From Thiomicrospira sp. (GTDB lineage Bacteria > Pseudomonadota > Gammaproteobacteria > Thiomicrospirales > Thiomicrospiraceae), in the NCBI GenBank assembly GCA_030826915.1, contig JAUUDE010000081.1:1-61052 (forward strand): a DNA stretch of 61,052 bases, in the 5' to 3' direction. Below, piece after piece: positions 5,246-59,228 of this stretch. Both the position numbers and the translations under genes were made by a program. The notes beneath the pieces were generated by a model that saw only the letters and a list, made by a program, of their open reading frames with translations, was not told the DNA's origin and ran no database searches. Numbering within the stretch: the stretch's first letter is position 1; every line of letters starts with the position of its first letter.

Positions 5246-6751
5246 TTAACGGTGACCAGCATCTGGGTTGTCTGTTTTCATACCTTCTGTCACAAATTGT
5301 GCCGCTTTAAAAATAGCGCGACCTTTGTTCATGGTTTCATCCCATTCTAATTGAGGAACAGAATCGGCGACAATACCCGCTCCTGCTTGTACAAAAAGTT
5401 TTTTATCTTTAATCACTGCGGTACGAATCGCAATGGCGGTATCCATATTGCCGTGCCAACCTAAATAGCCCACTGCTCCAGCGTAGATTCCTCGCTTAAC
5501 AGGTTCCATTTCATCAATAATTTCCATGGCACGAATTTTAGGTGCACCAGATACAGTTCCTGCTGGGAAAGTGGCTCGCAACACATCCATGGCAGTCATG
5601 CCTGGTTTCGCTTGGGCGTTAACATTGGATACGATGTGCATAACATGAGAGTAACGTTCAACAATCATCTTTTCCGTTAACTCTACGGAACCAATTTGCG
5701 CAATACGTCCAACGTCGTTACGCCCTAAATCAATCAACATCAGGTGCTCGGCTAGCTCTTTAGGATCACTTAACAATTCGTCTTCTAAGGCAACATCTTT
5801 CTCTGGCGTTAAACCACGACGACGCGTACCTGCAATAGGACGCACCGTTACTTGATTATCTTCAAGGCGAACTAAAATTTCTGGTGAGGAACCCACAATC
5901 TGAAGGTCGCCCATATCCACAAAAAACATATAAGGCGATGGATTCAAATAGCGTAAGGCACGGTATAAATCGATGGGTGCGCCAGCAAAGTCAACAGACA
6001 TCTGCTGAGAAATGACCACTTGCATAGCATCACCCGCCAAAATATATTCTTTAATTTTAGCGACCGCTTCTTTAAACTCTTCTTCACCAAAACTAGAGAC
6101 AAAATCTGACTCGGTCAGCACAGTTTGACTGCTTATATCTGCTGGCATAGGCATTGGCTGACTTAGCTGTGCTTGTAACTCATCAAGACGAGTCTGAGCA
6201 GTAGAATAAGCATTGGATTTTGATAAATCGGCATGCACAATCACATGTACTTGCCCACTCAAATTATCAAACACCACCAACTCTTCAGAAACCATGAGTT
6301 CAATATCCGGCGCGTCAATATCATCCTGTTCAGGAGTGGATTTTTGTAAACGCTCTTCTACATAACGCACGGTGTCATAACCAAAATAGCCAACTAATCC
6401 GCCGTTAAAAACAGGCAGGCCTGCTTGTTTATATACCTTAAACTGATTTTGATAGGCTTCAACCCAAGCAAGTGGATCATCAGCCACTTGATGCTGAACA
6501 ACCTCATCGCCACACATCTCACGAATTTGATTACCTTTAATGAGAAGACGTGTTTTACATGGCAAACCAATAATGGAATAACGCCCCCACTTATCTCCGC
6601 CCTGCACTGACTCAAATAGATAAGAATAAGGTCCTTTGGCTAACTTATGATAGACACTCAGCGGTGTGTCATAGTCAGACAATACAGTGCGCATTACAGG
6701 TGCACGAGTGTAGCCTTGTTTTGCGAGGTTAGCAAAAAGTTCATTGCTCAT
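5246..6751 (-). CDS. trpE: Anthranilate synthase component I
   Basis: 501 residues. Converts chorismate to anthranilate together with TrpG. The C-terminal chorismate-binding domain shows [52 protein letters not shown]-type segment [26 protein letters not shown] and GAVGYLG. The N-terminal region carries the LLESVQGG-like feedback motif as [16 protein letters not shown], so feedback inhibition by tryptophan is likely (known for the family). Its ATG overlaps the TGA of a 46-codon ORF just upstream (ATGA), which suggests translational coupling. Confidence 0.96.
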
Positions 6752-6888
6752 TTTGGTTCTGCCTTGCTTGAAGATTGCTTACGTTCTTTCCAATCCAAAT
6801 ATTTAAAAAGGATGGTGCGGCGAATACCCGCCAAAGAACAAAATAAAGGTCGAAAAATTTCTAGTAACAATGCTTTTATAAAAGCCAT
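6748..6888 (-). CDS. Small protein translationally coupled to trpE
   Basis: 46 codons ([20 protein letters not shown]..., ending [13 protein letters not shown]). The N-terminal half is hydrophobic and the C-terminal half is basic and hydrophilic. The stop codon overlaps the trpE start as ATGA. It is not a classical trp leader peptide: there is one Trp and no run of Trp codons. The upstream AGGATTT is a weak ribosome binding site. No family recognised. Confidence 0.5.
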
Positions 6889-7061
6889 GTTGAAATCCTA
6901 ATTGTTAATACAAACTTCTCAAAATTAAATTATGCAGGCCTGCCGGGTACGAAAAAATTGCATTTCCCAACAAACCTATATAATCCTAAATGCAATTAGG
7001 TTATCTTAAAGCTTGAAATTATCCAATACAGAAGTTCCCAAGCTTACAAAACAACCATTCT

Positions 7062-7122
7062 AAAATGGGAATGAAACTGGCTAAAACGCATAAACGCTTC
7101 ATAGCCAGTTTCAACCCATTTT
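7062..7122 (-). terminator. Long hairpin at the end of gph
   Basis: Two-part stem: AAAATGGG (7062-7069) pairs with CCCATTTT (7115-7122), and TGAAACTGGCTA (7072-7083) pairs with TAGCCAGTTTCA (7102-7113). It begins at the gph stop codon and is followed on the minus strand by only a short T-run, so it may act as a terminator or as a 3'-end stabiliser. The rest of the 6889-7120 spacer holds one CAGGCCTG core (6935-6942). Confidence 0.55.
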
Positions 7123-7798
7123 ATTTTGAGACTAGGTAGTCTTTAAATTCTACAAAAGAATCTGCAATGACATCTGGCTTATAGTCACGAATATCTTCTC
7201 CGTGGTTATAACCATAAGTCATACAGAAAATATGGAAACCGGCTGCTCGCGCGGCTTTAACGTCAGAACGAGAATCTCCAATCATTAATGCGTTTTCTGG
7301 TTCAACACCTAATTGTTCTGCGGCATACAGTAACGGCATTGGGTGCGGTTTTTTTTCTGCACAAGTATCACCTGAAACAACCACTTCAAAGTAATCATAC
7401 AGCCCTTTATCTTTTAATAAAGGAATGGTGAATGCTTCAGCTTTATTAGTCACACACGCAACACGGTAACCTTGTTCCATTATCCATTCAATACCTTCAA
7501 TAACACCATCGTAAATACGACTGCGTTGTGAGTAGTTATGTTTATAAAGCTCTAAAAAAATTGGGTAGGCTTTATCCATAAGTTCTTGATCTGGCATACC
7601 ATCTACAGAATTAATTAAGGCACGTTCAGTTAAACGCTGAACACCATTACCAACCCAATCACGCACAGCCTCTTCACCACGAACAGGCATGCCTAATTGC
7701 TTCATCATTTCGTCCACACAATAAGCCAAATCTGGCACGCTATCAATTAAGGTACCATCCAAATCAAACAGAACAAACCCTGGCTTTAACTTTTCCAC
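7121..7798 (-). CDS. gph: Phosphoglycolate phosphatase
   Basis: 225 residues, HAD superfamily. Motif I is LFDLDGTLIDS, motif II is CVTNK, Lys is in KKPHPMPL and motif III is ALMIGDSRSDVKAARAAG. It dephosphorylates 2-phosphoglycolate, the product of RubisCO oxygenase activity; in autotrophs the same enzyme is called CbbZ. Lies downstream of rpe on the same strand, and both enzymes serve the carbon-fixation genes located further along the window. A specific substrate test would be needed to exclude another sugar phosphate. Confidence 0.85.
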   Translation of the reverse strand: MEKLKPGFVLFDLDGTLIDSVPDLAYCVDEMMKQLGMPVRGEEAVRDWVGNGVQRLTERALINSVDGMPDQELMDKAYPIFLELYKHNYSQRSRIYDGVIEGIEWIMEQGYRVACVTNKAEAFTIPLLKDKGLYDYFEVVVSGDTCAEKKPHPMPLLYAAEQLGVEPENALMIGDSRSDVKAARAAGFHIFCMTYGYNHGEDIRDYKPDVIADSFVEFKDYLVSK

Positions 7799-7920
7799 AA
7801 TACTTCTCTTTTTAATATTTTTAACGAATCATCCAACAATATTACACCTTGAATCATTCACTATGAATTTCTAGCTGTATTTTTAAATACAAGCAAAAAT
7901 TCCTTCCCTTAAAACCACAA

Positions 7921-7954
7921 AACGCCAACGCCTCAAATTGAGTGCGTCAGCGTT
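7921..7954 (-). terminator. Hairpin between rpe and gph
   Basis: AACGC (7921-7925) pairs with GCGTT (7950-7954), with inner complementary segments around CTCAAATTGAG. On the minus strand it follows the rpe stop by about 25 bases and leads into GCGTTTTGTGG. Weak T-run, so a partial terminator at best. Confidence 0.45.
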
Positions 7955-7977
7955 GCAGTTGAAAAGCAAAAAGTGAT

Positions 7978-8682
7978 TTAGACTTTTGCTAGCTCATCAC
8001 GCATTTGTTTAATCACTGTATCATAACGGTTTGCATCTGATGCATTGGCTTTACCAAAGATACCTGAACCAGATACAAATGTATCACAACCTGCCGCTGC
8101 AACTTCAGCTATATTCTCAACCTTAACACCACCATCAATTTCTAAACGAATATCACGCCCAGATGCATCGATAAGTTTACGTGCTGCTTTTAGTTTTTCT
8201 AACGCTTGAGGAATAAACGATTGACCACCAAATCCTGGGTTAACAGACATGATTAAGATCATATCGATTTTATCCATAACATGCTCAAGATAGTCCAAAG
8301 AAGTTGCTGGGTTAAATACTAAACCGGCTTTTAGACCTGCGTTTTTGATTAGACCAAGATCACCATCAATGTGCTCAGAAGCTTCTGGGTGGAAAGTAAT
8401 GTAATCCGCACCAGCTGATGCGAAATCACCAATAATACGACTTACAGGCTTAACCATAAGGTGAGCATCAATTGGTGCATTAACACCTTCCGCAACCATA
8501 AAGTTTTTTAGTGATTCACAAACTAATGGCCCAATTGTTAAGTTTGGAACGTAGTGGTTATCCATTACGTCAAAGTGAACCACGTCTGCACCTGATGCAA
8601 TCACGTCTTTAACGTCTTTACCTAACTGAGCAAAGTCAGCAGATAAGATTGAAGGAGCAATCCAATTTTCTTTTTTAGCCAT
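7978..8682 (-). CDS. rpe: Ribulose-phosphate 3-epimerase
   Basis: 234 residues, cytoplasmic (beta/alpha)8 barrel. Interconverts ribulose 5-phosphate and xylulose 5-phosphate in the Calvin and pentose phosphate pathways. Motifs visible: [29 protein letters not shown] (metal His and Asp), [26 protein letters not shown] and EIDGGV. I chose ATG 8682 (AAGGTG six bases upstream) over a GTG three codons earlier. Confidence 0.95.
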
Positions 8683-8861
8683 GTTTAACACCTTATATCT
8701 GTAAATGTATAAAAAATAATTCGTGCATTCTAACAGTATCCTTTAAAATGGGCAAAAAATTGCATAGGATAACGCTAAGTTATGTCAATGAGATCATCAA
8801 GCGGAATAACTTGGATGTAGTAAGTGTATATTTAGAATGCTTAACGCAGGAAATTTACTAA

Positions 8862-9335
8862 ATGATAGATGAAGAGACAATTGAACGTCGGAAACCTTTG
8901 GACTTTGAAGAGATGCGTGTAACTTCAAAAAAACCAGCCCGAGAAATTATTTTAGCCAAAGCCATTAATTTTGCTGAATACCTTGGTTTGGTTGTGATTG
9001 CTCTGGCAACCGTTTATGCCGCCTTCGGTGAAGTTTTGCACATGGTTAATGCCGCCACAGTAACGCTTGGGGATTTATTACTTCTTTTCTTATATTTAGA
9101 AGTTTTAGCCATGGTAGCTATTTATCTTGAATCTGGAAAACTGCCGATTCGACTCCCACTCTACATAGCGATTGCCTTGGCTCGCCTATTAATTTTAGAC
9201 ATGAAAGATCTCACTGAATGGGAGATGATTGCTATTGCCGGCACAATTACATTAATTTCTATTGCCACCTTAATTTTACGTTACGGCCATCTTAAGTACC
9301 CATACAATAAAAGACGTCGTGCAACCGACCTTTAA
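8862..9335 (+). CDS. PsiE-like membrane protein
   Basis: 157 residues. A hydrophilic N-terminus (about 40 residues) is followed by four hydrophobic segments (YLGLVVIALATVYAAF; LLLLFLYLEVLAMVAIYL; LPLYIAIALARLLIL; IAIAGTITLISIATLIL) and a basic tail, matching the phosphate-starvation-inducible PsiE family. Molecular role unknown. Divergent from rpe; no clear Pho box was seen in its upstream 160 bases. It is 31 bases upstream of purC and may be co-transcribed. Confidence 0.7.
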   Translation: MIDEETIERRKPLDFEEMRVTSKKPAREIILAKAINFAEYLGLVVIALATVYAAFGEVLHMVNAATVTLGDLLLLFLYLEVLAMVAIYLESGKLPIRLPLYIAIALARLLILDMKDLTEWEMIAIAGTITLISIATLILRYGHLKYPYNKRRRATDL

Positions 9336-9366
9336 AACATCAAAACAGAGATACAGGAACATTTCA

Positions 9367-10257
9367 ATGCAACCACTTTATGAATCAACTCTAACGAGCT
9401 TGCCTTTATTAAACAAAGGTAAGGTTCGAGATATCTACGATATTGATGACAAGCACCTATTGATTGTTACCACGGATAGAATCTCTGCATACGATGCCAT
9501 CTTACCTACGGCTATTCCTGGTAAAGGGCGTATTTTGACTGAAACTGCACAGTTTTGGATGAAGAAAATGGCAAACATTGTTCCAAACCAATTAGCCACT
9601 GAAATGAATTTGTCTGACTATCTCACTGCTGATGAATTAAAGCAGTTAGATGGAAGAGGTATGATTGTTAAAAAGCTAAAACCTTTACCGGTTGAAGCCA
9701 TTGTGCGTGGTTATTTAGTGGGTTCTGGTTGGAAAGAGTACAAAAAAACACAAAAAATTTGTGGCATTGATTTACCTGAAGGGCTAAAAAATGCATCAAA
9801 ACTTCCACAACCTTTATTCACCCCTTCTACCAAAGCCGAGCAAGGCGAACACGATGAAAACATCAGCTTTAAGCAGCTTGTCGATATTATGGGTGAAGAG
9901 AAATCCAATGCGGTTCGTGATTTAAGTATTCAACTCTATACAACGGCGGCTGAATTTGCATTAGAGCGCGGCATTATTATTGCCGATACCAAGTTTGAAT
10001 TTGGTGAAGATGATGAAGGCACGATTTACTTAATTGATGAAGCTTTAACCCCAGACAGTTCACGTTTTTGGCCTGCATCCAGCTACAAAGTAGGCAGCAA
10101 CCCTCCGAGTTTTGACAAGCAGTATATTCGTGATTATCTGGATAGCCTCGACTGGGATAAAAATCCGGATACCGCTCCAGAATTACCAGAAGAAATTGTG
10201 GCCAAAACCTTTGAAAAATACCAAGAAGCACAGTCTCGTCTTACTGAGAACTTATAA
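9367..10257 (+). CDS. purC: SAICAR synthase (phosphoribosylaminoimidazole-succinocarboxamide synthase)
   Basis: 296 residues from ATG 9367 (MQPLYESTLTSLPLLNKGKVRDIYD). This is the longer eukaryote-like form of PurC. Condenses CAIR with aspartate using ATP in purine synthesis. Motifs visible: GKVRDIYDIDDKHLLIVTTDRISAYD, PVEAIVRGYLVGSGWKEY, ADTKFEFG and LIDEALTPDSSRFWP. The open frame extends 48 bases further upstream into the PsiE-like gene, but this ATG matches the family. bioD starts 6 bases after its stop. Confidence 0.95.
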   Translation: MQPLYESTLTSLPLLNKGKVRDIYDIDDKHLLIVTTDRISAYDAILPTAIPGKGRILTETAQFWMKKMANIVPNQLATEMNLSDYLTADELKQLDGRGMIVKKLKPLPVEAIVRGYLVGSGWKEYKKTQKICGIDLPEGLKNASKLPQPLFTPSTKAEQGEHDENISFKQLVDIMGEEKSNAVRDLSIQLYTTAAEFALERGIIIADTKFEFGEDDEGTIYLIDEALTPDSSRFWPASSYKVGSNPPSFDKQYIRDYLDSLDWDKNPDTAPELPEEIVAKTFEKYQEAQSRLTENL

Positions 10258-51035: not shown

Positions 51036-51689
51036 CAAGGGAAAACAACCATATCGAGCGTTTCAGCCAAAACAGGCCTATCAAGAAAAGAAGTTAAGCG
51101 CTTAAAAGAAACCGAGCAAATAGACCATAACCAAAACAGTCAGAAATATAATCGAGCGACCAGAGTCATCAGTGGCTGGACCAATAAGCAAGAATTTTTA
51201 GACGCTTCCGGAAAGCCAACACCTTTAAGATTAGATAATCAAGCACCCTCATTTTCCAATCTTGTAAAAAGGTACAGTGGAGATATACCAGCTAAAGCAA
51301 TGCTGGATTTATTGCTAGAGGCTGAATGCATTGAAATTAATGACAACCTTGCTTTCTTGGTCAGGCCTGTTTACCTGCCTGGCAATGATTCTTCAGAAAT
51401 TGCACTTATCTTAGGAACAGATACTACAGAGCTCATTGAAACTATCAGTCACAACATGGTTACTGATGAAAGTAACAAACGCTTTCAAAGAAAAGTTTCC
51501 ACTCATAAGCTGGACAAGGCCGCCGTTTCAGCATTCCAAAAATTGGCAGCCAACCACTCACAGGCTCTTCTGGAAGAATTAGACTCATGGCTTTCTGAAC
51601 ATGAAGCAGAAAACGGTAATGACAGCCAATATGTCAGTGTCGGGGTTTATTACTATGAATTCAAAAACAAGGAAAATCATCATGATTAA
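51021..51689 (+). pseudogene. DUF6502 gene lacking its N-terminus
   Basis: The frame is open and conserved well before the first ATG (51300): QFDNGQGKTTISSVSAKTGL, SRKEVKRLKE, NRATRVISGWTN, FLDASGKPTPLRL and FSNLVKRYSGDIPAKAMLDLLLEAE are family features. The N-terminal part of about 60 residues is missing and ISL3 sequence lies there instead. DUF6502 proteins look like DNA-binding regulators and pair with DUF5666 genes, as here: it overlaps the next start by 8 bases. Expression from ATG 51300 would give a 129-residue fragment. Confidence 0.7.
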
Positions 51690-53184
51690 ACCATTTAAGA
51701 CAACTACAATAGCAAGCGCAATCGCCGTAACTTTAGCTGCTTGTGGTGGTGGAACTTCCTCAGATACAGATACTGCTGGCATTGAAGGCTCAGGATTTAT
51801 TTCTACTGGAACCATTACAGGCTTTGGTAGCGTTTACGTCAATGGCGTAAAATTTGAAACAGACAGTGCCACCTTTGATATTGAAGGCAACAGCAGTCGC
51901 ACATCTCAAGCAGACTTGGCTATCGGGATGGTGGTACGTGTCAACGGAACCATTAACCCTGATGGCGTTACAGGAAACGCAACCAGCATAATCTTTGATG
52001 ATGAGTTGCAAGCACCCATATCTGGACTGTCATTTAACCCTTCTGGCGCAACAGCAGATACAGCAGACACAGCCTCTTTCACGGTTTTAGGCGTTACAGT
52101 AGATGCCGACCGTATCACCACTAACTTTGATGGCCCTACTTTATTCGATTCAGCTGCAGGAAGCCTAGTGGATGGTAATCATATTGAAATCAGCGGTTTC
52201 TTTGATTCAAACGGTGTGCTCCATGCTAGCCGCATCGAAAAACAGAGTGATTCAAAGGTTGAGATGAAAGGTACGGTTGCTAATTATGTTAATGATAGTA
52301 ATTTTGATCTTGTAAGATTAGATAGTAATAACAACGTGATTGTCACTATCAGTGTAGATGCATCCTCTGCATCTTCAATTGAAGGGTTTCCTAATGGCAT
52401 TTCAGATGGCGCATTCATTGAAGTAGAAGGAATTTATAGTTCAGGTAGTAATACCATTACAGCTGACAAAGTTGAGTCTGAATCTTTTGAAGTAGAAGAT
52501 ACTAATGAATTTGAAATTGAAGGCTATATCACCAACTTCAATAGCAATAGCGATTTTAAAATCAACGGCATGAGCATTGACGCAAGTGGTGCACAAATCG
52601 AGCCTGCTAGCACAATTTTAGCGAATGACTTAAAAGTCGAGGCAGAAGGTCAAATAGTAAACAACGTACTTATAGCCAATGAAATTTCATTACGTAGCGG
52701 TGAAATTAAAATTGAAGCTCCAGTATCAAGTACTGACACTGTAAACAACACCATTACTGTTGCACCGACTTCAACAGACTTCATCATCATCGAAGTCGGC
52801 AATGAAACAGAGTTCAGAGATGAAGTAAACGATACAGAACCTTTTTATCTTGAAGACATCACCAATAGCATGCATATTGCAATTGAAGGCTACGAGCTTC
52901 AAAACGGCAATGTATTTGCTGATAAAGTTGTTGTAATTGATGGTTCAGACGGTATAGCCGTAGACGGCATTCTCGAAAGTTTTGAAAGTGGTTCAAAAAC
53001 TGTCACCATTCTTGGCGCTACCTTTTCTGCAATTGATGGTACTACAACATATGAACAAAATGATGTCGTTTTAAGCCCTAATGACTGGGCAACTTTAGAA
53101 CCCCTCTTAACTCCAAATACCACACAGATTGAAGTTGAAGACACGGACTCTGATGGTATTGCAGATAAAATAGAAATAGATTAA
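51682..53184 (+). CDS. DUF5666 repeat lipoprotein
   Basis: 500 residues from ATG 51682 (AAGGAAAA upstream). The lipoprotein signal peptide ends IAVTLAAC-GG. The rest is built of repeated beta-rich units of about 70 residues with G-x-I/F-x-G-T, VNGV, V-E-x-G and A-x-x-I-x-I patterns (for example SGFISTGTITGFGSVYVNGVKFETDS), the DUF5666 family. Very acidic. Exported and probably anchored to the outer membrane; function unknown. Its regulator-like partner is truncated. Confidence 0.8.
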   Translation: MIKPFKTTTIASAIAVTLAACGGGTSSDTDTAGIEGSGFISTGTITGFGSVYVNGVKFETDSATFDIEGNSSRTSQADLAIGMVVRVNGTINPDGVTGNATSIIFDDELQAPISGLSFNPSGATADTADTASFTVLGVTVDADRITTNFDGPTLFDSAAGSLVDGNHIEISGFFDSNGVLHASRIEKQSDSKVEMKGTVANYVNDSNFDLVRLDSNNNVIVTISVDASSASSIEGFPNGISDGAFIEVEGIYSSGSNTITADKVESESFEVEDTNEFEIEGYITNFNSNSDFKINGMSIDASGAQIEPASTILANDLKVEAEGQIVNNVLIANEISLRSGEIKIEAPVSSTDTVNNTITVAPTSTDFIIIEVGNETEFRDEVNDTEPFYLEDITNSMHIAIEGYELQNGNVFADKVVVIDGSDGIAVDGILESFESGSKTVTILGATFSAIDGTTTYEQNDVVLSPNDWATLEPLLTPNTTQIEVEDTDSDGIADKIEID

Positions 53185-55319: not shown

Positions 55320-55343
55320 AAGATAACCAGGCCTGGTTATCTT
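55320..55343. repeat. Iterated palindrome, 24-bp intergenic copy
   Basis: The longest copy in the window: core ATAACCAGGCCTGGTTAT (55323-55340) extended by AAG on the left and CTT on the right to 24 bp of perfect symmetry. Located between glycerate kinase and the Pho-box-like sequence before btaA. Confidence 0.9.
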
Positions 55344-55393
55344 AAAACCCATCTAATTTTCTCTTCTAAAACTTACATATAGCCGTTACACAA

Positions 55394-55427
55394 CTGTCAT
55401 ATTGCAGTAACAACAAATCGATAACAT
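55394..55427 (+). promoter_or_regulatory. Pho-box-like promoter of btaA
   Basis: CTGTCATATTGCAGTAAC (55394-55411) has two 7-base half-sites spaced 11 bp (CTGTCAT and CAGTAAC); the first is identical to the PhoB consensus half-site. A third, weaker half-site CGTTACA lies 10 bp upstream. Exactly 10 bp downstream is TAACAT (55422-55427), a possible -10, which is the spacing of PhoB-activated promoters. The match was found by eye. Confidence 0.6.
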
Positions 55428-55442
55428 TATTTGAAATATATT

Positions 55443-55466
55443 GAGCCCTTTGCACAAGAAGGGCTC
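55443..55466 (+). promoter_or_regulatory. Strong hairpin in the btaA leader
   Basis: GAGCCCTT (55443-55450) and AAGGGCTC (55459-55466) around an 8-base loop, 41 bases before the btaA ATG and downstream of the inferred transcription start. Followed by ATATTT, not a real T-run, so more likely a leader RNA structure than a terminator. Confidence 0.5.
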
Positions 55467-55507
55467 ATATTTATCAAAGTCATTAACACCTTTAAAGAAG
55501 ATTAAAA

Positions 55508-56812
55508 ATGAACTCATCGAACTCGCTTGATTTATCTACTCAAACCCCTAAAACAAAAACCTTACTGAACTCGGCTGTAAACAATACCTCTATCTTGAGT
55601 CGTAAAGGTTTTTTGGATCGTTTGTTCACTAGCTGGTTTGACCGTTTGGTCTATCCCCAGATTTGGGAAGATCCTGAAGTAGATATTCAAGCGTTACAAA
55701 TCGATAAACAATCACGCATTTTCACCATTTCTTCTGGCGGTTGTAATGCATTAAATTACTTAACCGAACAACCTGAACACATTGAGGTGGTTGATTTAAA
55801 CGAAGCGCATATTGCTTTAATAAAATTAAAACTGACCGCCATTGAACATATGCCTAATGCAGAGGCTTTTTTTGATTTTTTCGGCAAAGCCAACCTGCAA
55901 AAAAACATGGATCGTTACGAAGCTTATATCAAGCCACACTTAGACAGAAAAACGCTTGAATATTGGGAGTCTAAAGAACGCCCGTGGAGTAAAAAACGCA
56001 TTACCTACTTTACCAACGGTTTTTACAAGCACGGGCTTTTAGGTCATTTTATTGGCTTAATTCACTGGACAGGAAAACGCCTTGGCTATGATATTTCAAA
56101 AATGATGCAGGCAAGTAATTTAGAGCAACAACAGCAGCTTTTTGATGAAAATGTTGCCCCGATTTTTGACACAAAACTACTCAAGTTTTTGTCTAACCGT
56201 GCCATGGTCATGTACAGCCTTGGCATACCTCCATCACAGTTTGATGAACTGCATAAACAGTCAGAAGATGAACAAAAAGGTATGCACAACTTACTTAAAG
56301 AACGTGCTCGTCAATTAGCTTGTGATTTTTCGTTAGACGAGAACTACTTTGCTTGGCAGGCATTTAAACGGGAATACGATATTAAACACCGCAAAGCCAT
56401 TCCACGTTATTTAAAACAAGGGGTTTTTGATGTTTTAAAAGACAACCAACAAATAGTGAATGTGAGCCACAGCTCAATGACCGAGCGTTTAAAGGCATTG
56501 CCTGCAAACAGTTTAAATGCCTATCTGTTTTTGGATGCGCAAGACTGGATGGATGAAAATCAATTAACGGAGCTTTGGCAAGAAGTTAATCGCACGGCTA
56601 TGCCAGATGCAAGAGTGGTATTTAGAACTGCAGGTGAAATTTCTCCATTAGAAGAAAAACTTCCACAAAGCATTCTAAATGAGTGGCAGACTGACGTTCA
56701 AAGCAACCAGGCCTGGACAAAAAAAGATCGCTCTGGAATTTATGGCGGTGTGCATTTGTATATCCATAAAAACCATCATGCAGAATCTGCCAACCACGTT
56801 GATAATAAGTAA
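55508..56812 (+). CDS. btaA: SAM:diacylglycerol 3-amino-3-carboxypropyltransferase (BtaA)
   Basis: 434 residues, DUF3419/BtaA family. Features: WFDRLVYPQIWEDPEVDIQAL, ISSGGCNALNYLTEQPEHIEVVDLNEAHIALIKLKL (SAM-binding), NGFYKHGLLGHFIGLIHW, LSNRAMVMYSLGIPPSQF, ACDFSLDENYFAWQAF, YLFLDAQDWM and DRSGIYGGVHLY. BtaA attaches the homoserine moiety of SAM to diacylglycerol, the first step of betaine lipid (DGTS) synthesis. The usual second gene, the N-methyltransferase BtaB, is not next to it; a GNAT gene starts 9 bases downstream. A Pho-box-like promoter precedes it, as expected for phosphate-free lipids. Confidence 0.88.
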   Translation: MNSSNSLDLSTQTPKTKTLLNSAVNNTSILSRKGFLDRLFTSWFDRLVYPQIWEDPEVDIQALQIDKQSRIFTISSGGCNALNYLTEQPEHIEVVDLNEAHIALIKLKLTAIEHMPNAEAFFDFFGKANLQKNMDRYEAYIKPHLDRKTLEYWESKERPWSKKRITYFTNGFYKHGLLGHFIGLIHWTGKRLGYDISKMMQASNLEQQQQLFDENVAPIFDTKLLKFLSNRAMVMYSLGIPPSQFDELHKQSEDEQKGMHNLLKERARQLACDFSLDENYFAWQAFKREYDIKHRKAIPRYLKQGVFDVLKDNQQIVNVSHSSMTERLKALPANSLNAYLFLDAQDWMDENQLTELWQEVNRTAMPDARVVFRTAGEISPLEEKLPQSILNEWQTDVQSNQAWTKKDRSGIYGGVHLYIHKNHHAESANHVDNK

Positions 56813-56821
56813 ATAAACAAC

Positions 56822-57937
56822 ATGATTATTACCAATAACCAGAGCTTAAACGAATATCACCCTTCTAAAATCTATGTTGAGACCTTGCTTAGTTTAGGTC
56901 TTGATAAGGCGATTCCGAATGTGCAGACGGATATTGATACCATTACCATTGATAAACAGCCCGTGCCTATCACACTGAATTATGAAGAGTACAATAATAG
57001 CTACGTTTGCTCTCCTTACACCGCCTATATTTCTTATGCACAAGATGAATTGCAACTGATTCATTCCAAAACACAGCGTAGGTTGTTTTGGGGAGCGATT
57101 CGTTTTGCAGATAAACTCTTAAAATGGGCAAATATTAATCAAACTTTATCCATTAACAACTGGTTAGTTTCAACCAATTTACCGCCAAACTGGTCAAGCC
57201 AAAGTATACAACAATTAACAGTAGATTTAATTGAACGCTACCCAAACCATAGCTTTAATATCCGTTCTTTAAATCCGCACAACCATGCACAGCTTATCCA
57301 AAATTTACAAGAACAAGGCTGGCTAATGCTGCCCGCTCGCCAGGTGTATCTATTTGATAATAAAGATAGGCAATGGTGGCAACGCAGTCATACAAAGCGC
57401 GATCAGAAGCTATTGCAAAAAACCCATTTACAACGAGTGAAGCCTGAAGAACATCAGCAAGCGGATTTTACTGAGATTGAAAATTGCTTTAAGCAGTTAT
57501 TTATTGAAAAACACTCTCACTTCAATCCACAATTTACAGCAGCTTATCTATATCAAATGCACCTTAATGGATTAATGGAATTTCACAGCTTTAGAGATCC
57601 AAACTCTCAACGTATTGTTGCGTCCATTGGGTTATTTACCCAGCAGGGAATCATTACCACACCTATGGTTGGTTACAATACCGGTCTGCCTAAGAAACTG
57701 GGGCTTTATCGCCTATTGATGGCCGTACTTTTAAAAGAGACTTATGACTCTGGAAAAATAATGAATTTGAGTTCAGGAGCAGGCAGTTTTAAAAGTGCTC
57801 GTGGTGGACGGCCTACTATTGAATATACGGCGTTTTACACCAATCATTTATCCTATAGACGCAAATTAACCATGTTCCTGTTTGCCAAACTTCTCAATAA
57901 ATACGCCCCTAAAGTGTTTGCTGAGAATCAGATTTAA
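56822..57937 (+). CDS. GNAT-fold acyltransferase paired with btaA
   Basis: 371 residues. The N-terminal half (1-160) is unrecognised; the C-terminal half resembles GNAT/FemAB-like acyltransferases (FHSFRDPNSQRIVASIGLF; GLYRLLMAVLLKETYDSG; NLSSGAGSFKSARGGRPTIEYTAFY). Starts 9 bases after btaA with no strong binding site, so it is probably translated with it. From context it may act on the free amine of diacylglyceryl-homoserine or on another lipid head group, in place of BtaB. This is an inference. An alternative is an unrelated amino-acyl or acetyl transfer. Confidence 0.65.
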   Translation: MIITNNQSLNEYHPSKIYVETLLSLGLDKAIPNVQTDIDTITIDKQPVPITLNYEEYNNSYVCSPYTAYISYAQDELQLIHSKTQRRLFWGAIRFADKLLKWANINQTLSINNWLVSTNLPPNWSSQSIQQLTVDLIERYPNHSFNIRSLNPHNHAQLIQNLQEQGWLMLPARQVYLFDNKDRQWWQRSHTKRDQKLLQKTHLQRVKPEEHQQADFTEIENCFKQLFIEKHSHFNPQFTAAYLYQMHLNGLMEFHSFRDPNSQRIVASIGLFTQQGIITTPMVGYNTGLPKKLGLYRLLMAVLLKETYDSGKIMNLSSGAGSFKSARGGRPTIEYTAFYTNHLSYRRKLTMFLFAKLLNKYAPKVFAENQI

Positions 57938-57945
57938 AGGGCATT

Positions 57946-57961
57946 TAACCAGGCCTGGTTA
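57946..57961. repeat. Iterated palindrome, 16-bp intergenic copy
   Basis: TAACCAGGCCTGGTTA, identical to 46797-46812, 8 bases after the stop of the GNAT gene and in the convergent spacer before the PlcP-type gene. With the 24-bp copy at 55320 it brackets the btaA-GNAT pair. Confidence 0.9.
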
Positions 57962-58065
57962 CTTTTATTTTTCTGTTTTCTACCAAGTGTTTTTATACCT
58001 AACATTCAAGTAAAACACTTGGTTTTAGGTCGGTTTTAATGATTTATCTCGCCGCTAGATTCGAT

Positions 58066-58926
58066 TTATGAATTCGTTTCGTGATTAATTTCCATCCAAC
58101 GCAGCAACTTCATTTCACCATCTAATGTTTCTACAATCGCGGTACAGGACTCAACCCAGTCACCACAATTTAGGTATTGAATATCATCCAACAATCTAAT
58201 TTCTGGATGGTGAATATGCCCGCAAACCACACCCGAATAGCCTTGCTCTTTACAATCTTTTACCACCGCTTCTTCATAAGCAGAGATAAATGAAACCGCA
58301 CCTTTTACCTTCTGCTTTATATATGAAGAGAGAGACCAATAGCCCATGCCAAATTTGCGACGAATTTGATTGAAATAGCGATTAATAATGACTAAGGTTT
58401 CGTAACTCCAATCACCCAGTAACGCAAGCCACTTCTGCGTTTGAATCACACCATCGTACTTGTCACCATGCACCACCAAAAAACGTTCACCGTTTTTGGA
58501 TTGAAACTCAGCTTCGTCACATAACTCGATATTTCCAAAGTTCAAACCTGAATAACGTCTCAAAAAATCATCGTGATTTCCAGTAACAAACACCACATCG
58601 GTACCACGCTTTGACATCGTCAAAATTCTACGAATAACGTTGGTATGACTTTGCGGCCAGTGCATACGTTTTTTCAATCGCCAACCGTCAATAATATCGC
58701 CAACCAGGTACAGTTTTTCGCAATCGTTATACTTTAAAAACTCGGCTAAAAAAACGTCTTTACAACCTTTTGCACCCAAATGCACATCAGATATAAAGAT
58801 GGTTCTATAGACATGCTTTTGATGATCGTTTTCAGCCAAAATAAGCTCATCTTGATCAATAGAAGCCATCCAATCAGGCAGTAAAGTCGATTCAAAGTTA
58901 TTCATTTGCGAGTCGTTAGATGACAT
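58066..58926 (-). CDS. plcP: Metallophosphoesterase, PlcP-type phospholipase C (LpxH-like)
   Basis: 286 residues, calcineurin-like. Metal motifs in order: FISDVHLGAKGC, YLVGDIIDGWRLKK, FVTGNHDDFLRRY, LVVHGDKYDG and CGHIHHPEI, with NCGDWVESCTA. No signal peptide. Length and the GWRLKK...WPQSH and WSLSSYIKQKVKGAV segments resemble PlcP, which under phosphate limitation splits phospholipids to diacylglycerol. It would thus supply the substrate for BtaA encoded opposite. A UDP-2,3-diacylglucosamine hydrolase role is the alternative. A Pho-box-like sequence lies upstream. Confidence 0.75.
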   Translation of the reverse strand: MSSNDSQMNNFESTLLPDWMASIDQDELILAENDHQKHVYRTIFISDVHLGAKGCKDVFLAEFLKYNDCEKLYLVGDIIDGWRLKKRMHWPQSHTNVIRRILTMSKRGTDVVFVTGNHDDFLRRYSGLNFGNIELCDEAEFQSKNGERFLVVHGDKYDGVIQTQKWLALLGDWSYETLVIINRYFNQIRRKFGMGYWSLSSYIKQKVKGAVSFISAYEEAVVKDCKEQGYSGVVCGHIHHPEIRLLDDIQYLNCGDWVESCTAIVETLDGEMKLLRWMEINHETNS

Positions 58927-59016
58927 ATCAATCCCAATTTAATTCACTGTTATAAATAGAAAAAATTACATTCGATAATTTCTTGCAACCTTTTAAATCA
59001 GTCTACTGGTTGTTTT

Positions 59017-59033
59017 TGACATTTAAATGACGC
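59017..59033 (-). promoter_or_regulatory. Pho-box-like sequence upstream of the PlcP-type gene
   Basis: On the minus strand GCGTCATTTAAATGTCA matches the PhoB consensus at 11 of 17 positions, with GTCAT and TGTCA spaced as the half-sites. A further TTTCATT lies 11 bp upstream. About 90 bases before the start codon; TAGACT 11 bp downstream could be the -10. The rest of the 302-base divergent spacer shows nothing definite. Confidence 0.5.
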
Positions 59034-59228
59034 TTAAATGAAAATGTAATAATCTTGACCTTATTCGTATCCAAAAATATAGGTGTGTGTGGTGAAAAAT
59101 ATAAACAAGACCTCTACAAAAAGGACTAACAGGTTCAATCCGTTATTAAAGCAACGATGTCATAGTTATCTCGCTTTATAAACGTTACAATACTCCACAT
59201 TATTTTTTTAACATAAAGCCCTTAAAAC

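Follow-up and report, generated by a model that had tools for sequence, protein, structure and literature searches.

Among described systems, the closest to the locus examined here are the plcP-btaA-btaB operons, such as the type 1 operon of Phaeobacter sp. MED193; according to the portions of PMC4796936 on which we draw, btaA and btaB come after plcP there, putative Pho boxes accompany the genes, and diacylglyceryl-trimethylhomoserine (DGTS) is lost in a plcP mutant. We detected a variant of this arrangement in Thiomicrospira sp. (assembly GCA_030826915.1; 1.79 Mb in 99 contigs, 86% complete), on contig 8 of the assembly (JAUUDE010000081.1), whose full analyzed stretch of 61,052 nucleotides we call the window. 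PlcP, BtaA, the linkage of the genes, and putative Pho boxes are common to both, and the predicted pathway is the same up to diacylglyceryl-homoserine (DGHS), but in the window BtaB is missing and a protein with two GNAT domains (a double-GNAT) stands in its place. The BtaA proteins of the Sinorhizobium meliloti and Rhizobium leguminosarum BtaA/BtaB pairs (L126, L125) are about 41% identical to that of the window and belong to the same clade; unlike theirs, however, the partner in the window is not a methyltransferase, and DGTS is not to be assumed as the product.

We tentatively propose that this gene set is a phosphate-starvation membrane-remodeling module in which an aminoacyl-tRNA-dependent GNAT enzyme caps DGHS. 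Under phosphate starvation, PlcP would strip the phosphate headgroup from phospholipids to give diacylglycerol, and BtaA would add to it the 3-amino-3-carboxypropyl group of S-adenosylmethionine, yielding DGHS, two reactions that we infer from the known families to which these proteins are assigned. Where BtaB would methylate the amine of DGHS three times and so lead to DGTS, the double-GNAT enzyme would instead cap this free amine, with aminoacyl-tRNA as the likeliest donor and aminoacyl-DGHS as the product. We consider it probable that the GNAT enzyme has DGHS as its substrate. An amino acid is a likelier cap for the amine than a fatty acid, and, given the gene content, a membrane lipid so far undescribed is probably produced in the Thiomicrorhabdus group.

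The coupling of btaA to the GNAT gene is conserved among relatives. Across the 37 genomes of the window's family (G000-G036), which are among 58 searched in all for DUF3419, GNAT, and BtaB, the btaA-type DUF3419 gene and the GNAT gene co-occur as neighbors in the same 22 genomes and neither occurs in the rest, these and later counts across relatives being taken without correction for shared ancestry; one genome outside the family (G037) has DUF3419 without this GNAT gene. The two genes lie 9 bp apart on one strand in the window, with plcP convergent to both, and the GNAT gene is directly downstream on the same strand in all 46 DUF3419-GNAT loci (gaps of -32 to +71 bp), a set that includes some places counted twice and four loci of a distant Rhizobium/Shinella type. 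Named loci matching the window set include Thiomicrorhabdus and Hydrogenovibrio, and by these matches the window most likely belongs to their group. A strong PlcP match (E <1e-50) was present in all 22 GNAT-bearing family genomes, adjoining the pair in 20, against three matches, one of them partial, among the 15 that have no GNAT gene (Fisher p 2e-7, kinship uncorrected). The position of plcP in the 22 genomes varies: right after the GNAT gene and codirectional with it in 13, convergent in 5, divergent upstream in 2, and elsewhere in 2. One family genome without btaA and the GNAT gene (G019) carries plcP between genes matching in length those that flank the whole btaA-GNAT-plcP set in another (G026), which suggests that btaA and the GNAT gene were gained or lost together.

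BtaB, the expected partner, was not recognizable in any of these genomes. A search for a copy elsewhere in the 86% complete source genome found none, the best match reaching only E 6.2e-5 (27% identical over residues 46-159). The 22 GNAT-bearing genomes gave only weak, generic matches (best E 3.7e-6, 27% over about half of the query; none at all in one genome), and the 16 of them that are at least 99% complete gave nothing better; this statement covers the 22 family genomes, as the Vogesella genomes were not searched as wholes for BtaB. In a class-wide DUF3419 sample of 370 genomes, from which weak matches in G206, G215, and G259 and a further weak one in G037 were set aside, a BtaB-like methyltransferase (71-191 bits to two rhizobial BtaB) adjoins all 18 high-scoring loci outside the family, six of which also have PlcP inside the examined stretch. 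Seven lower-scoring DUF3419 loci (L174-L180) have neither BtaB nor GNAT nearby and fall outside the BtaA clade.

The tree of DUF3419 proteins, with 50 rows (that of S. meliloti BtaA being a frame fragment with 46% of the columns), supports an exchange of partners. Its BtaA clade comprises 40 rows, 21 partnered with BtaB and 19 with GNAT, and none with both or neither. The 19 GNAT-partnered proteins, from the window family and Vogesella, form one clade (support 99/98) nested in a 27-row clade (99/96) whose other eight rows are BtaB-partnered, and a 13-row BtaB-partnered clade lies outside. Because BtaB-partnered rows occur on both sides of the GNAT clade, it is simplest to suppose that BtaB was lost and GNAT gained, and the genomes support well that the GNAT gene, most simply, replaced BtaB in the operon. 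Ten DUF3419 rows are outside the BtaA clade; three of these, from Rhizobium/Shinella plasmids, have a member of this GNAT family as partner. The DUF3419 proteins of this type are only 19-23% identical to that of the window, and their partners occupy another part of the GNAT tree, from which near-duplicate and short rows were left out; since the pair is set apart in both trees, DUF3419 seems to have been paired with this GNAT family at least twice.

The other two genes were assigned by family. The btaA product matches DUF3419 at 343.8 bits (curated cut-off 28.2; E 1.9e-102), is the only such match in the source genome, is 41-43% identical to rhizobial BtaA over eight longer matches, and groups inside the 27-row clade (99/96) whose eight BtaB-partnered rows include S. 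meliloti BtaA. The plcP product is a calcineurin-type phosphoesterase by Pfam, well under both LpxH cut-offs. It scores 238-302 bits against four plcP genes adjoining btaA-btaB in other Gammaproteobacteria, but only 24.9 bits against the source genome's own LpxH, and is 42.8% identical to the single S. meliloti homolog found. LpxH was considered as an alternative identity and ruled out: a separate gene on contig 95 exceeds both LpxH cut-offs (242 bits against a cut-off of 134). The original prediction, made from the window alone, had placed three genes at 55508, 56822, and 58066 and called them btaA, a GNAT-fold partner coupled to it instead of BtaB, and a convergent PlcP-type neighbor. The layout is as predicted; the btaA identity agrees with the DUF3419 match and the grouping with BtaB-paired BtaA, the partner with the co-occurrence, adjacency, and exchange in the BtaA tree, and the neighbor, by sequence similarity, appears nearer to btaAB-linked plcP than to LpxH. 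It had also asked whether btaB was present elsewhere and whether the pair was conserved without it; none was recognizable in the source genome or its 21 GNAT-bearing relatives, so that the pair stands without a recognizable BtaB in 22 of the 37 family genomes.

Phosphate control is indicated for btaA. We scored putative Pho boxes against a consensus of three 7-bp units at 11-bp spacing (maximum 21), over both strands of the window (122,048 positions). The block that begins at 55383, 125 bases 5' of btaA, scored 19 of 21 and ranked first among all 122,048. Of the 19 regions upstream of related btaA genes, some of them near-identical, 17 reached a score of at least 16, compared with 20 of 173 control regions; these controls lay upstream of any open frame of at least 200 amino acids in the loci concerned, including the btaA and GNAT frames themselves. 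Mean best scores were 16.7 for the 19 btaA loci and 13.35 for the 173 controls (Mann-Whitney p 6e-11, kinship uncorrected). Such boxes had been predicted for both transcription units; that of btaA ranks first and is kept in relatives, but the best score before plcP was 15 of 21, equaled or exceeded at 78 window positions and not better than chance. The source genome encodes PhoB (322 bits, cut-off 296).

Searches with the double-GNAT protein alone returned nothing significant from Pfam, NCBIfam, or PDB sequences. We call it a GNAT because its relatives match Acetyltransf_6 (PF13480), which 34 of 62 aligned members, the window protein not being one of these, do at E ≤0.1 (best 2.4e-8), and because of its structure model: an AlphaFold2 model built from the 62 sequences (predicted local distance difference test score 95.3) reveals two GNAT domains by secondary structure and fold matches. 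Over the whole length, the solved structures that fit best are those of aminoacyl-tRNA-dependent enzymes: Sbb17 (Z 16.2, 3.5 Å over 250 residues; Foldseek 1.1e-8), FemX (Z 16.0, 4.0 Å over 274), and MprF (Z 14.6, 3.8 Å over 251). Other double GNATs (MAB_4324, and VipF and MshD with acetyl-coenzyme A [CoA]) superposed at Z 11.8-13.9 with root-mean-square deviations (rmsd) of 5.0-7.7 Å. The GNAT-fold label of the original prediction is upheld through relatives and model; as to the donor, the whole-length superposition favors an aminoacyl group over the fatty-acyl group implied by the prediction's term acyltransferase.

One conserved motif may point in the same direction as the whole-length fold. 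Lys324 is invariant in the 62 members, and position 323 is Phe in 59 and Tyr in 3; an F-K pair near the end of the second domain also occurs in the one FemAB and the one MprF protein examined. According to the parts of PMC12945691 used here, the key residues are Lys305 in FemX and, in DhpH-C, Lys329, which adjoins Phe328. The K324 motif resembles these catalytic lysines, matched by motif and order and not by residue superposition. An amphipathic stretch at about residues 86-103 (hydrophobic moment 0.70) could touch the membrane. Taken on its model, the enzyme perhaps works like FemX or MprF, yet it is not a member of their families by sequence.

Several observations weigh against a module with an aminoacyl-tRNA-dependent step. 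Further MprF chains go down to Z 12.6 (rmsd 3.6-4.2 Å) and so overlap the acetyl-CoA double GNATs in Z, Foldseek TM-scores for the model are only about 0.45, and the second GNAT domain alone fits a spermidine acetyltransferase at Z 12.9 and 2.4 Å over 126 residues. Pfam matches to FemAB and LPG_synthase_C were absent in all 62 members of the GNAT alignment, and no alignment resulted when the family profile was compared with a single FemAB and a single MprF sequence. The CoA-binding loop of GNATs is Q/RxxGxG/A; residues 291-296 are Q/K/R-x-x-G-L-Y in most members, a segment that resembles this loop with its last position changed and would favor a CoA- or acyl carrier protein (ACP)-bound donor. 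On the genomic side, the direction of the partner swap depends on a DUF3419 tree rooted for drawing only and with long outer branches, and 7 of 20 named btaA-GNAT loci (three of them Vogesella, one at a contig end) are without plcP in the flank examined, against 13 with it. The alternative that draws most on such observations is that the enzyme acylates the DGHS amine from acyl-CoA or acyl-ACP, giving anionic N-acyl-DGHS or N-acetyl-DGHS. We regard this main rival as unlikely, though it has the GNAT fold itself in its favor, together with the loop-like motif where CoA binds in ordinary GNATs, the close fit of the second domain to acetyl-CoA enzymes, and the precedent, from the parts of PMC11631085 available to us, that GNAT-type enzymes N-acylate amino acids in aminolipid synthesis. 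The superposition of both domains is better on aminoacyl-tRNA enzymes than on the acetyl-CoA double GNATs listed, however, and PF13444, the OlsB family, is not matched by the window protein at E ≤0.1, both of which argue against this rival; an OlsB-type acyltransferase was rejected for want of that match.

Two further readings would leave the GNAT enzyme with another task. The final lipid could be DGTS or a partly methylated DGHS made by an unrecognized methyltransferase, and one of the generic class I methyltransferases that appear as weak matches in the BtaB search could have taken over this role; but a recognizable BtaB adjoins btaA in all 21 sampled loci outside the GNAT clade, and as the best match across the 22 GNAT genomes is only E 3.7e-6 we judge this very improbable. 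Free DGHS might instead be the end product or feed another pathway while the GNAT enzyme works on a different amino-acid lipid such as ornithine lipid, for which the source genome has an OlsF-type synthase. That gene is on another contig, though, and the GNAT gene directly follows DUF3419 in all 46 loci and in two separately paired DUF3419 lineages, which makes this reading improbable too.

The GNAT family extends well beyond the window. A scan with the single window protein returned no relatives, which is not evidence of rarity because a later search gave 423 relatives in GTDB species genomes, ruling out a local curiosity. Among the best 80 of the 423, with neighbors classed by similarity to seed genes, 20 adjoin DUF3419, 51 are near an ATP-grasp gene, and 9 are near neither, some of these nine on short contigs or as single genes. 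The 51 ATP-grasp loci also carry KASIII (45), a reductase (45), a metallo-beta-lactamase (MBL)-fold protein (43), an adenylating enzyme (39), and a Rieske protein (27). In the Shewanella locus L082, the only one run against curated models, the reductase is closest to OleD and the MBL protein to acyl-homoserine lactone lactonases, both with scores under the cut-off; TIGR02304 is the model that the adenylating enzyme passes. This cluster of KASIII, OleD-like reductase, MBL, TIGR02304-type, ATP-grasp, and double-GNAT genes, often with a Rieske protein, was observed in L082, L075, L118, and about 40 other loci of many phyla, and we found no description of it in the open-access literature; its companion AMP-ligase was not found in the source genome in a search run without a positive control. 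In the four Rhizobium/Shinella plasmid loci, DUF3419 takes the ATP-grasp position, and no ATP-grasp gene occurs within the 11 kb examined.

These neighborhoods would fit one theme, in which BtaA/DUF3419 or an ATP-grasp ligase installs an amino-acid head group on a two-tailed lipid and the double-GNAT enzyme works on its amine. GNAT-fold and ATP-grasp enzymes are discussed as peptide ligases in the portions of PMC2922099 that we cite, a role that fits an aminoacyl donor. With more reserve than for the window module, we suggest that a widespread, undescribed double-GNAT family may cap the amino-acid head groups of two-tailed phosphate-free lipids with aminoacyl-tRNA, the head group being supplied by DUF3419 on diacylglycerol, as in the window, or by ATP-grasp ligases or distant DUF3419 proteins on an OleA/OleD-like two-chain acid; the window module would then make aminoacyl-DGHS and with it a new class of membrane lipid for phosphate starvation. 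Individual loci vary: three from Shewanella (L082, L083, L111) hold three double-GNAT members each, two of them adjoining and diverged, and L082 also has a major facilitator superfamily transporter and a beta-lactamase-fold gene. A lone family member in Paenibacillus polymyxa (L122, about 5965-9372) is near an alkaline phosphatase gene, perhaps a link to phosphate.

Coordinates of the features are collected in Table 1. The genes flanking the set appear unrelated to it (glycerate kinase, an RNase T-type exonuclease, and phosphoribosyl-AMP cyclohydrolase). Elsewhere in the window, at 51601-53184, is a gene for a 527-amino-acid protein with repeated DUF5666 domains (five stretches), possibly a surface protein. 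Contig 49 of the source genome carries a bifunctional ornithine lipid synthase gene of the OlsF type (L203:511-2244; NF052615, 841 bits against a cut-off of 620), from which the organism should make ornithine lipids too. The 12-bp palindrome ACCAGGCCTGGT has exact window copies at 2191, 10288, 19153, 46799, 55326, and 57948. With up to one mismatch there are 11 copies in the window, against 0.04 expected, and 197 in the source genome; across 24 genomes of the same genus, copy numbers range from 0 to 718, so that some species have many and others none, and a reversed control gave 0 in all. It resembles a highly iterated palindrome or uptake-type signal. One of the two copies folded gave a significant hairpin, and a terminator role for the copy after the GNAT gene is unsupported by folding (z-score 0.78).

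Table 1. Window positions of the genes and sequence elements discussed in the text.
Feature	Coordinates	Strand	Evidence
Pho-box array before btaA, 7-bp direct repeat units at 11-bp spacing; best 29-bp block 55383-55411	55361..55411	+	19/21 matches
btaA (DUF3419), predicted S-adenosylmethionine:diacylglycerol 3-amino-3-carboxypropyltransferase, 434 amino acids	55508..56812	+	PF11899 match 1.9e-102
Double-GNAT transferase in BtaB position, 371 amino acids; GNAT domains at about residues 37-178 and 203-340; F323-K324 motif	56822..57937	+	Model, fold matches, conservation
Copy of iterated palindrome ACCAGGCCTGGT, then T-rich sequence, after GNAT gene	57946..57964	+	Fold z-score 0.78
plcP-type phosphoesterase, 286 amino acids, predicted to release diacylglycerol from phospholipids	58066..58926	-	Metallophos, below LpxH cut-offs
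Weak Pho-box-like repeats before plcP	59016..59044	-	15/21, no better than chance in window

The presence of btaA is easily taken as evidence for DGTS, a reading that would be wrong for these sulfur-oxidizing chemolithotrophs and for Vogesella, because their btaA is paired with another enzyme and no recognizable btaB occurs in the 22 family genomes. A distinct lipid is thus worth seeking in the lipidomes of bacteria with the btaA-GNAT pair, and since the DUF3419-partnered members have a predicted acceptor, the reaction of a large, uncharacterized, multi-phylum enzyme family becomes directly testable. We found no report of the pair in the open-access literature, subscription papers being outside our coverage, and this exchange of BtaB for a double-GNAT in a known lipid-remodeling module appears to be undescribed. 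The fold is common to FemX, MprF (lysyl-phosphatidylglycerol synthase), and Sbb17, and a similar F-K motif occurs in the FemX-like and MprF proteins examined, but the window protein has no sequence kinship to them detectable by Pfam or profile alignment and has btaA as its gene partner. MprF also has a membrane flippase part; the window protein, unlike it, is a single 371-amino-acid double-GNAT unit. The lipid N-acyltransferases OlsB and OlsF are likewise GNAT-type enzymes acting on lipid amino acids, but theirs is the Acetyltransf_5 family, unmatched by the window protein, and the source genome has an OlsF of its own. LysX, an MprF homolog, differs in acting on diacylglycerol and in belonging to the MprF family, with no link to BtaA mentioned in the sections of PMC10580965 consulted; its product, lysyl-diacylglycerol, is a precedent for aminoacylating a phosphate-free glycerolipid.

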